Positions 41,717-45,607 are shown, numbered from the stretch's first letter. The stretch: DNA of 64,000 bases from Verrucomicrobiales bacterium (GCA_016795505.1 JAEUHH010000103.1:1-64000); one strand, 5' to 3'. Notes: generated from the letters alone by a model not told the origin. Numbers and translations are program-made.

Positions 41717-43987
41717 TCAGCCGGGCTGGCCGGAGAGGCGGCGGCTCAGGTCGCGCAGGGCCTCGAGGATGTCGATGGGGGTGGCTGGGATGGGCAGTTC
41801 GACTTCGACAGTGGGATCGACGGGGGTGCCGAAGGCGCGGATGGCTTCGCGGACGGCCTCGCGGGCGGCGGCGGCGAGGAAGACGGCCCCTTCGGCCCCG
41901 CTGGCGGCGGCGAATTCGGCCGGTTGCCGGGGCGAGGCGAGCAGACCGACGCTGAGTTGCAGCGGGGCATCGCCAAAGCCGGGCAGCAGGTAGTTTTCTC
42001 CGCCGGTTTGCCGCGGGAGGCCATCGGAGGTCCAGGAGACGGATTCGCTGAGCATCCAGCCGAGCCCCATCTGGAGGGCGCGGCCGATCTGGGCGCGCTC
42101 CTGAGGGCCGCCGGCGGCATTGCTGCCCTGGTGGACCAGGTCGGCACGGAGGAGTTGGATTTCGCCGGTGAACGCATCGAGTTGCACCTCGATGGCGGCG
42201 GCTCCGCAGACGAAGCCGGAGAAAGGCCAGCCGGCGCCGACTTCGCGGTCCCACCAGAGGTTCGGGGTACGATGAAAGCCGGTCGCGGTGAGGAGGATGC
42301 GGCGGCGCCAGGCAGCTTCGGCCAATTGGGCAAAGGGGATGCGGTGATTCGACCGCCCGCCGGCCGTGACGAAGCTGTCGGCAAAGCGGATGGTATCGGC
42401 GTCGATGTCGGTGGCGCCGGTGCTGGCCAGAACTTGGACGGCAACAGGGCGGAGCCGGCTTTTCAGGGCCTCGCAGGCATCGGCCACGGCGCGGCGCATC
42501 AGGCCGACGGCGTCGATTCCGAGCCGCGGGGTGAGGTGGGGCGTGGTGTGGAGATCTCCACAGGTGACGCTGACGCGGTCGGGGCTGAGCCCAAGCTGCT
42601 GGGCAGCTTCCTCGCCCACGCGGCGGGCGAGACCGTCACCGGCATCCTGACAGCCGGCCCAGACGCAGACGGAGCCGTCGACGAGGATCTGGACCTGCAC
42701 CATGGCCTGGTTGCGCTCGGCACGGGGATCGCCGAAGCCGAATTTCATGGGCACGACGCCGAGGCCGCGTTTGTAGCAGGGATTGCCGGCATTCCACTGC
42801 TCGATGGCCTGGCGGCGGGCGGAAATCTCAGCGCGGCGGAGGAGGTCATTCCAGGCGCGCTGCAAGGGATCGCAATCAACGGGCTGGCCGTAGGGGGTGG
42901 AGTGGCGGTTTTCGGATTCGCGGTAGAGATTGAGTCCGCGGATGGCCTCGAGGGGTTTTCCCAGATGATGGGCGATGCGGGTGAGGATCTCCTCCATGAT
43001 CAGAGATCCCTGGGCGGATCCCTCGGCTGGCAGGGCGTGGCCGGTGAGGTGATGGGTGCGGCAAAGGCGGCCCGAGGCGCGGAAGTCGGGCACGTAGTAG
43101 GCGCCGTCGGCATGCAGCAGAGCGAGGTCGAGCGACGTTTCGGAATCGCCGATCTCATGCCCGCCATCCATGGCGAGGCGGATGTCGACGGCCTCGAGCC
43201 GGCCTTCGTCGGAGAAACCGGCCTGAAAATCGGCCCGGACGGCATGGCGACGGGGAGTGAGGGCCAGATCGAGCTCGCGGGGAATGACCAGCGAGACCGG
43301 ACGACCGGTGCGGCGGGCGGCCAGCGAGGCCAGCACGGCGACATGAGCAGACTCGGCCTGGCGTCCGCCGGACAGCGAGGCCAGCGGCGGCGACTGGACA
43401 TCGATGCGGCTCTCGGGCTCCGCCAGAGCGGTCGCGACAGCGGCGCGAACCCGCGAGGGCAACTCAGCCGTCGTCTCAACGGTCAGCCGTCCATCGTCTC
43501 CGGGATTGGCGAGGGCGGAGACGGGCCTCTCCGACAAGGGAAGCTGGCTGCCGATCTCAAGAGCACCCGTGAGTCGGCGGCTGGCTTTGGCCAACGCCGC
43601 GGTGGCATCGCCGCGCGCGATGGTCACCGCCTCGGTGAGGTAGCTCTGCATGGCGAGCGCGTGGTCGAGATCGGCGGTGGCGGGCAGGGGATGGTAGGCC
43701 ACCTCGATCAGGGCGGCGGCGGCAGCGGCGGCTTCTTCCGTCTCCGCGACGACGAGCGCGACCGGCTGGCCGTGGTAGCGGACGGCATCCGCCGCGAGGA
43801 TGGCCTCGTCGGGTCGCAGAGGGCGGAGTCGGTTGCGGACGCCGAGGTCGCTGGCGAGCATCACCAACACGGTGCCGGGATGGCTCCGCGCGGCATCGGC
43901 CTGAATCGAGCCGATGGAGGCGGCGGCGTGAGGTGAGGTGACGAGCCGGGCGTGGAGCGGGAGGGAATCTGGGGCGTGGGATTTCAA
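41717..43987 (-). CDS. Xanthine dehydrogenase-like large (molybdopterin) subunit with decayed cofactor motifs
   Basis: A 756-residue protein with the two-domain architecture of XdhB/aldehyde oxidase large subunits (N-terminal hammerhead-like region, LRPDEAILAADAVRYHGQPVALVVAET). Many Moco-site motifs are altered. The GQxHFYLE motif appears as GSQLPLSERP (146-155). The GGGFGGKE motif appears as LASLSGGRQAES (202-213). The AFRGFGxPQ motif appears as HALPAEGSAQG (317-327). The GxEMGQGLxTK region appears as AGCQDAGDGLARR. A GAEG near residue 707 may keep the catalytic glutamate. The frame is intact over its full length, so a non-enzymatic or altered role is possible. It is the downstream partner of the small subunit by 51 bp. 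Confidence 0.75.
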   Translation of the reverse strand: MKSHAPDSLPLHARLVTSPHAAASIGSIQADAARSHPGTVLVMLASDLGVRNRLRPLRPDEAILAADAVRYHGQPVALVVAETEEAAAAAAALIEVAYHPLPATADLDHALAMQSYLTEAVTIARGDATAALAKASRRLTGALEIGSQLPLSERPVSALANPGDDGRLTVETTAELPSRVRAAVATALAEPESRIDVQSPPLASLSGGRQAESAHVAVLASLAARRTGRPVSLVIPRELDLALTPRRHAVRADFQAGFSDEGRLEAVDIRLAMDGGHEIGDSETSLDLALLHADGAYYVPDFRASGRLCRTHHLTGHALPAEGSAQGSLIMEEILTRIAHHLGKPLEAIRGLNLYRESENRHSTPYGQPVDCDPLQRAWNDLLRRAEISARRQAIEQWNAGNPCYKRGLGVVPMKFGFGDPRAERNQAMVQVQILVDGSVCVWAGCQDAGDGLARRVGEEAAQQLGLSPDRVSVTCGDLHTTPHLTPRLGIDAVGLMRRAVADACEALKSRLRPVAVQVLASTGATDIDADTIRFADSFVTAGGRSNHRIPFAQLAEAAWRRRILLTATGFHRTPNLWWDREVGAGWPFSGFVCGAAAIEVQLDAFTGEIQLLRADLVHQGSNAAGGPQERAQIGRALQMGLGWMLSESVSWTSDGLPRQTGGENYLLPGFGDAPLQLSVGLLASPRQPAEFAAASGAEGAVFLAAAAREAVREAIRAFGTPVDPTVEVELPIPATPIDILEALRDLSRRLSGQPG

Positions 43988-44038
43988 ATCTGGGGGGAAA
44001 CGCGGGAAAATCGGGAAATCGGCGGTGACTTCGGGCCG

Positions 44039-45607
44039 TCAGGGCTGAGCGGCAGCGGGCGGAAGGCGTTTGGGGGCGAGGTAGTCGCCGACCACGCCGA
44101 GCGGAGCGGCCGGGCGGCCCGGTGTGGCATGTTGATAGAAAAACTTCTGTAACAAGGTGATGATGAGCTGGCGACGGTATTCCTTTTCCCGGTCGGTGGG
44201 CGCAGGGGCTCCGCCTGTGGTCGACGCTGCGCCTTCGATCTCCTGACTGACCCGGCCGAGGATGCCGATGATGGTTTCCTCCGACCAGAATCGACCGATG
44301 AGGGCCTTTTCGGCCTCGCGGGCGCGGAGGGGGCGGTCGCCGATGCCAGCGTAGGCCAGAATGGCCTGGGTGATGCGGGTATTGACGTCGAGTTCCACTG
44401 CAAAGGCCGCCGAGAGGGTCGCCGGGGCATCGGTGCGCCGAGGAGACGCCAGATAGGTGTCGCACAGCCGGAGCACGCCGCCGCCACGGGAGGCGAGACT
44501 TTCGCGGGTGAACTTCGGCAGCACGAGGTGGGCGATGACTTCGCCCGGGCGGAGATTGGTGCGGCCCTGGCCTTCGAAAAAGCGGGAGACCGGGATGTCG
44601 CGCTCGCCGTCGTGTGAAACGACGCGCACCACGGCATCCAGCGCGATGATGGAAGGAGCCAGCGGGTCGTCCAGGCGGGCGCTGGCCAGACAGCCACCCA
44701 GAGTGGCCCGGTTGCGATGCGGACGGGTGCCAAGACGCCGGATGACTTTCGCGAGCAGCGGACAGGCGTCGCCGAGGCGCTCGCCGAGTCCGGTCAGGGT
44801 GACGGCCGAGCCGACGAGCCAGCGGTCGTTTTCTTCAAACACGGTCCGGAGGTCCGGCACGCCATCGGTGGCGATGAGGCAGTTCGCCGCGGCCAGGTCT
44901 GCCGATGAGCGGCCGTGAGCCAGGCCGGCGGAGCCGCCAATGAGGAGGGCTTTGGGAAACTGGGAAAGCAGCCGGGTGAGGTCCACCAGCGTGTGCGGGC
45001 GATAAAAGCGGCGTTTGCCCGAATCGACGTAGCTGAATTCCTCGCTGTCGGGCCAGACTCCGGAAAGGGCGCTCGCGAAGGGCTCCACCGGGGCCGCGCG
45101 GCGGGGAGCGGGCAGGATGGACTGGGCGAGATCCCGCAGACCGCCGTAGTGGATGGAGCGCGAGAGGCAGCCGTCAAAGTGGTCAGTGATCTGCCCCGGC
45201 CGCGACCATTCCGGCCGGTGCCAGGCCTCGATGAGAGCGGTGATGACCTGGGCGCGGGCTTTCCACGAGGTGGCGACATCCGGCTGGGCATTGAGCAAAT
45301 CGAGAGCGGGGTGCGAACGACCCCGTTGGGCAGCGAGGGCGAGGCCCTCCGCCGACCAGAATCGCCGTCCGGCAACGGTGGGCAGCAAAAGGAGCGAGGC
45401 ATCGACGGACCGAAGCGCCGGTCGCCCCTGCGGATCGACGTCAAGCAGGAGCAGCGGCGCGCCACCGAGAGCGGATTCGGCTTGGGCAAAACGCCGCTCC
45501 CGGCCATAGCCCTGTCGGTCGAGATAATCGGCCAGGGTGGTGAAAACTGGCTCTCCCGCCACCCGGATGGTCTCTCCGTCGAGATCAAACGTGTAACTGC
45601 TCTGCAT
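44039..45607 (-). CDS. Xanthine dehydrogenase-like small (FeS/FAD) subunit lacking FeS cysteines
   Basis: A 522-residue XdhA-like protein. The fold order is preserved: a ferredoxin-like region (TFDLDGETIRVAGEPVFTTLADYL), a helical domain, then an FAD-binding domain (YRPHTLVDLTRLLSQFP, LLIGGSAGLAHG, VGSAVTLTGLGERL, RNRATLGGCLASA) and a CO-dehydrogenase flavoprotein C-terminal domain. In the first 240 residues there is only one cysteine (C147), whereas the two [2Fe-2S] clusters of the family need eight. The GNLCRCTGY site reads DGCLSRSIHYGG. Electron transfer through FeS clusters therefore looks impossible. The TGG-type FAD motif is also changed to GGSAG. The ATG is at 45607. Confidence 0.8.
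   Translation of the reverse strand: MQSSYTFDLDGETIRVAGEPVFTTLADYLDRQGYGRERRFAQAESALGGAPLLLLDVDPQGRPALRSVDASLLLLPTVAGRRFWSAEGLALAAQRGRSHPALDLLNAQPDVATSWKARAQVITALIEAWHRPEWSRPGQITDHFDGCLSRSIHYGGLRDLAQSILPAPRRAAPVEPFASALSGVWPDSEEFSYVDSGKRRFYRPHTLVDLTRLLSQFPKALLIGGSAGLAHGRSSADLAAANCLIATDGVPDLRTVFEENDRWLVGSAVTLTGLGERLGDACPLLAKVIRRLGTRPHRNRATLGGCLASARLDDPLAPSIIALDAVVRVVSHDGERDIPVSRFFEGQGRTNLRPGEVIAHLVLPKFTRESLASRGGGVLRLCDTYLASPRRTDAPATLSAAFAVELDVNTRITQAILAYAGIGDRPLRAREAEKALIGRFWSEETIIGILGRVSQEIEGAASTTGGAPAPTDREKEYRRQLIITLLQKFFYQHATPGRPAAPLGVVGDYLAPKRLPPAAAQP

Follow-up and report, generated by a model that had tools for sequence, protein, structure and literature searches.

Members of the xanthine oxidase family are defined by their redox cofactors. 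Kinases and other enzyme families are well known to include pseudoenzymes. In the open-licence literature we found neither a pseudoenzyme of the xanthine oxidase family nor a description of a cofactor-stripped lineage such as the one reported here. The closest described system is the xanthine dehydrogenase (XDH) of Rhodobacter capsulatus, XdhAB (PDB 1jro/2w3r; TIGR02963, TIGR02965), whose chains are the closest solved relatives of two proteins encoded by adjacent genes in a 64,000-nucleotide stretch of DNA from a Verrucomicrobiales bacterium (GCA_016795505.1, JAEUHH010000103.1:1-64000; hereafter, the window). This gene pair shares with XdhAB the two-gene split, the domain order, the predicted full-length fold, the catalytic-base glutamate and 33% identity in the large subunit (structural alignment). 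Unlike XdhAB, it has no cysteine ligands for the iron-sulfur (FeS) clusters, the loops that hold the molybdenum cofactor (Moco) are replaced, the two phenylalanines that presumably sandwich the purine have become Glu and Asp, the loop for flavin adenine dinucleotide (FAD) is partly changed, the genome has no XdhC, and the scores are well under the XDH cut-offs. Fused XDHs of other Verrucomicrobiales families (f2-f4, loci L031-L038) are intact relatives, 33-40% identical to the large subunit, which differ from the pair in being one chain (frames of about 1,230-1,580 aa) with intact FeS and Moco motifs. We propose that this XDH lineage has ceased to work as a molybdo-iron-sulfur redox enzyme and has been kept for another job, a reading to which the sequence evidence leads us to assign a probability of roughly 0.7.

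Cofactor and substrate sites of the two subunits

Profile matches (Pfam, NCBIfam) place the two proteins as the small and large subunits of a split XDH. The small-subunit gene comes first and is followed, after 51 bases, by that of the large subunit, which starts with TTG and whose frame is open up to the stop of the small subunit; both are on the minus strand (Table 1). The only Pfam matches of the small subunit are FAD_binding_5 and CO_deh_flav_C, and those of the large subunit are Ald_Xan_dh_C, MoCoBD_1 and MoCoBD_2, while neither Fer2 nor Fer2_2 was matched in either subunit in the profile search. Scores against the XDH families are far below the curated cut-offs, with 148 bits versus 467 for TIGR02963 and 453 bits versus 849.5 for TIGR02965.

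Residues were compared in an alignment of R. capsulatus XDH and about 50 homologues, including the orthologous pairs that form one clade with that of the window (hereafter, the clade). None of the eight [2Fe-2S] ligand positions of R. capsulatus XdhA holds a cysteine in the window, and the single cysteine of the former FeS region, C147, is displaced from all of them. The initial annotation, made from the sequence alone, had reported one cysteine where eight would ligate the clusters; the alignment shows the loss to be somewhat larger than that and places no ligand elsewhere. An alignment slip hiding the ligands was discarded, since the cysteines of the small subunit match neither the ligand positions nor their spacing and the alignment of the predicted fold covers the whole chain. 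A lone cysteine at the position of C103 is kept in most relatives and is gone from the window copy. Overall, the clade keeps 4 of the 42 FeS-domain positions conserved in intact XDH, and 16 of the 31 in the FAD domain. Judging from these positions, the FeS-cluster function of the pair is lost, while the FAD site appears only partly eroded and may still bind flavin.

In the large subunit, all four motifs whose change had been pointed out in the initial annotation (GQxHFYLE, GGGFGGKE, AFRGFG and GxEMGQGL) are replaced when aligned with R. capsulatus XDH: GGQEHFYLE reads GSQLPLSER, MGGGFGGKE reads LASLSGGRQ, AFRGFGGPQG reads ALPAEGSAQG and GTEMGQGL reads GCQDAGDGL or near it. The ASSG and GEPP loops are also changed. 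The Mo-contacting glutamine is Gln197 (R. capsulatus numbering, Rc), which is lost; Gln171 is kept. By the bovine numbering, Phe344 and Phe459 would sandwich the purine and Gln490 and Gln663 would adjoin the pterin. At Rc positions Q197, E232, R310, R342, F344, F459 and E730, the window has E, Q, L, P, E, D and E; for this seven-residue signature, intact XDHs (39 loci or references) have QERRFFE and most of the clade has LERPEDE.

Intact XDHs have 169 conserved positions in the large subunit. The clade keeps 49 of these, and a further eight are conserved with a different residue (Q203R, F344E, P347A, S458G, F459D, Q490D, G662A and G666R), the majority lying at the Moco or substrate site. By this comparison the pocket is re-patterned with new invariant residues and not merely emptied, and Moco binding by the pair is very unlikely. 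The earlier claim of a changed Moco site therefore needs refining, as the motifs are indeed lost while the catalytic-base Glu is retained; likewise, the loss of cofactors that had been postulated is shown for the FeS ligands and strongly implied for Moco, while FAD, whose site is partly eroded, may or may not still bind.

AlphaFold2 models of the single chains, built from input alignments of 28-29 sequences, had a mean pLDDT (predicted local distance difference test) of about 86.5 and a pTM (predicted template modelling score) of 0.87 for both. In Foldseek comparisons the large model matched 1jro_B over 744 columns, with a template modelling (TM) score of 0.91 when normalised by the query and of 0.90 when normalised by the target, and the small model matched 2w3r_A and 1jro_A with a target-normalised TM score of 0.86 over about 506 columns. 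The full XDH architecture, including the former FeS domains, is thus predicted to be kept, in line with the fold order originally noted for the small subunit; as the models derive from homologue alignments, the fold match is support and not proof.

Table 1. Position of the gene pair and of its cofactor and substrate sites in the window (Rc, R. capsulatus numbering; Arg653 and Glu716 are in P0001 numbering)
Feature	Position	Strand	Remarks
Small subunit of the XDH-like pair	44039..45607	-	522 aa; two former FeS domains and FAD domain; cluster ligands lost
Loop aligned to cluster ligands C39/C44/C47 of R. capsulatus XdhA	45458..45484	-	No Cys
Segment aligned to ligands C103/C106	45260..45271	-	No Cys in the window
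Segment aligned to ligands C134/C136	45155..45163	-	GNLCRCTGY replaced by GCLSRSIHY
FAD loop	44663..44704	-	TLGGCLASARLDDP; GG kept; the Asn and Asp that intact XDHs always have are changed
Large subunit of the XDH-like pair	41717..43987	-	756 aa; hammerhead and two Moco-binding domains by profile; Moco/substrate residues replaced
Clade motif LPAEGxAQG	43007..43033	-	Replaces FRGFGGPQG; Phe344 (Rc) to Glu in 31/31 inspected
Clade motif KFGxGDPR	42722..42745	-	Replaces KFGISFTL; Phe459 (Rc) to Asp in 31/31
DAGDGL	42629..42646	-	Replaces EMGQGL; Gln490 (Rc) to Asp in 30/31
Arg653	42080..42082	-	Replaces Gly666 (Rc); clade-invariant
Glu716	41891..41893	-	Aligned with catalytic base Glu730 (Rc); clade-invariant

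Distribution, selection and order of loss

Of the 289 genomes searched in the order, 72 had matches. Pairs of the window's type were present in 37 genomes of six genera (g1, g2, g3, g8, g9 and g14), all from the window's own Verrucomicrobiales family, a count made from the match table in which some members are fragments only or have motifs that were not inspected. The 31 large subunits whose motifs were inspected all share the Moco-loop losses, and in a maximum-likelihood tree the type forms one clade with 100/100 support. In a scan of GTDB r220 with one genome per species, the Glu/Asp type was found only in metagenome-assembled genomes (MAGs) of Verrucomicrobiota, mostly labelled Verrucomicrobiales (e.g. 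Akkermansiaceae bacterium UBA2381), the other relatives having either Phe/Phe or the residues typical of more remote members of the family.

The frames are unbroken in the orthologues as well as in the window pair, for which long open frames had first been described and whose coordinates fit. Ratios of nonsynonymous to synonymous change (dN/dS) in close pairs were about 0.065-0.14 for the large subunit and 0.04-0.16 for the small one, well below 1, and below 0.4 between the window and its genus mates, with dS near saturation in that case; these values come from NG86 pairwise distances in which dS is partly saturated. Measured up to the node of its genus, the window's path in the tree equals that of its sisters and does not exceed it. 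On these rates both proteins are under purifying selection and maintained as a pair. Two side observations concern genus g2, where the copy at L050 (genome G191) is very long-branched, with frames of 716 and 508 aa, has kept the LplA-like gene described below as its neighbour, and may be decaying or specialising faster, and where large subunits (e.g. L056, L062 and L067) carry an N-terminal extension of ~50 residues with a recurring MSxxDNITPFRLP...ETFGERLRRRR; the window's genus has a short extension of another sequence.

The distribution of XdhC agrees with the loss of Moco. An xdhC mutant of R. capsulatus makes XDH without molybdenum-molybdopterin (Mo-MPT) (PMC2997495). XdhC (E below 1e-27) accompanied an intact XDH in 15 of 15 genomes of the order, and was convincingly present in one of 27 genomes with pairs of the window's type, namely G159, where it lies next to that genome's own intact XDH gene; none was found in the window's genome. 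Marginal matches in G090 (E 3e-4, reaching the cut-off only after adding neighbouring matches in its frame) and G082 (E 7e-4) lie in frames of about 470-490 aa. They were taken for another protein because genomes with intact XDH have, besides their true XdhC, matches of comparable weakness in frames of 450-539 aa.

The window's genome (6.5 Mb, 97% complete) has MoaC, for Moco synthesis, and other molybdopterin oxidoreductases, so the losses do not stem from a genome that no longer makes Moco. One of these oxidoreductases (PF00384, 987-aa frame; G000:C24:91776-93044) lies on the same contig outside the window, so that the organism probably uses molybdenum or tungsten.

A second lineage with altered Moco motifs was found in the same bacterial family (genera g6, g11, g13 and g17; loci L039, L041, L043, L045, L046, L048 and L051). 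It resembles the clade in its split pair, in the absence of a convincing XdhC and in having Arg at Rc 203 and Gly at Rc 458, and differs from it in that the catalytic-base Glu is missing at the aligned position and in forming a separate clade (100/100). All eight FeS cysteines are kept in L039 (G102), L041 (G221) and L043 (G093), and most cluster ligands are lost in L045, L046 and L048. In the three former loci Moco and substrate residues are replaced, the catalytic-base Glu included, and their product is possibly a FAD/FeS protein without Moco. The two lineages group at 91/81, which is not decisive, and the second is a probable sister of the clade. Since it pairs altered Moco motifs with intact FeS ligands in some members, the comparison suggests that, if the two are sisters, Moco was lost first and FeS clusters at least twice afterwards.

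With regard to the gene neighbourhood, the pair has an LplA/LipM-like ligase gene immediately upstream in g9, in most of g2 and in all three of the window's genus mates; its product carries GGGAQRR and GPCF-type motifs (LplA-B_cat loci L075:6312-7091, L078:1700-2443 and L122:6558-7277). As an operon partner it was rejected, because homologues occur throughout the order, also in genomes that lack the pair, and in the window's genome it is on another contig (G000:C15:49784-50467, L150); the association is no more than a lead. On the downstream side, the genes change from genus to genus.

Possible roles of the pair

The evidence supports reading the two proteins as a maintained pseudoenzyme pair, as initially proposed, and not as a product of recent decay: cluster ligands and Moco loops are lost clade-wide, XdhC is gone and both proteins are kept by selection. 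A non-redox role in binding, as a scaffold or in non-redox catalysis would be the most likely. The pair would still assemble as in XDH, as a heterodimer or heterotetramer without Moco and FeS and perhaps with FAD. The old purine/Moco cavity would now be a charged pocket formed by E339, D437, D468, R653 and E716 (P0001 numbering), which may bind a different small ligand or a metal, or serve structurally. We consider it conceivable, though on balance doubtful, that this cavity, with Glu and Asp for the two phenylalanines, an Asp and an Arg next to the Moco site and the retained catalytic Glu, has been rebuilt into a new active or binding site with which the heterodimer performs non-redox chemistry or sensing.

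Several points weigh against our main proposal. The catalytic-base Glu is invariant in the clade, and Glu232 and Arg310, which bind the purine, are mostly kept outside the window's genus, both of which would be odd for a pocket without chemistry or a purine-like ligand. Roles for Glu232 and Arg310, and that of Glu730 as general base, have been described (PMC9966888). The FAD domain retains about half of its conserved positions, leaving a flavin function possible, no partner or operon pointing to a function appeared in the gene neighbourhoods examined, and all named members are MAGs.

Some of these same facts would fit a pair that is still an enzyme, in which the acidic replacements of the phenylalanines and the retained Glu constitute a new site with a new cofactor or metal. 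The invariance of E339, D437 and R653 in the clade, the near-invariance of D468 and the retention of E716 speak for it, as does the persistence of Glu232 and Arg310 in the other genera; however, the window's genus has changed their equivalents to Gln and to Leu/Gln, respectively, and no set of conserved His or Cys such as metal sites usually have was seen at these positions. We regard this explanation as less likely than not.

Less probable still, and in our view unlikely, is that the small subunit has retained FAD and acts as an NAD(P)H-linked flavoenzyme that needs neither Moco nor FeS. The FAD_binding_5 match reaches 103.6 bits, and R276, T280, G282, G283, P296 and others are among the 16 FAD-domain positions kept, but most of the clade has other residues in place of N284, S289, P290, I291, D293, K352 and D360, which intact XDHs conserve, and flavin alone leaves the conservation of the large subunit unexplained.

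Ongoing decay, with the pair as pseudogenes still free of stops, could account for the lost motifs and for the window copy having also lost the lone cysteine and being separated from the LplA-like neighbour, but it is refuted for the clade by selection, spread and rates, with frames unbroken in over 30 genomes, dN/dS of 0.04-0.16 in close pairs, new invariant residues and no faster rate on the window's branch. Just as improbable is that the pair regulates or stabilises, as a pseudo-subunit, an intact XDH of its own cell. Two genomes with the pair, G159 (L047) and G156 (L049), do have a second, intact-looking XDH-family gene, but the order-wide search found no second full-length gene in nearly all pair-bearing genomes. 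In the window's genome, of which about 3% is missing, the large subunit is the sole MoCoBD_1 gene and the profile search found no Fer2_2 anywhere; unless one lies in the missing part, there is no genuine XDH there of which the pair could be a partner.

A two-chain enzyme of about 1,280 residues thus seems to have shed Moco and FeS and yet persists in many species. Automatic annotation would label these genes as xanthine dehydrogenase, predicting a purine oxidation that is probably absent. Besides, with a probable sister lineage at an intermediate stage, one can directly test in what order an enzyme with several cofactors gives them up.

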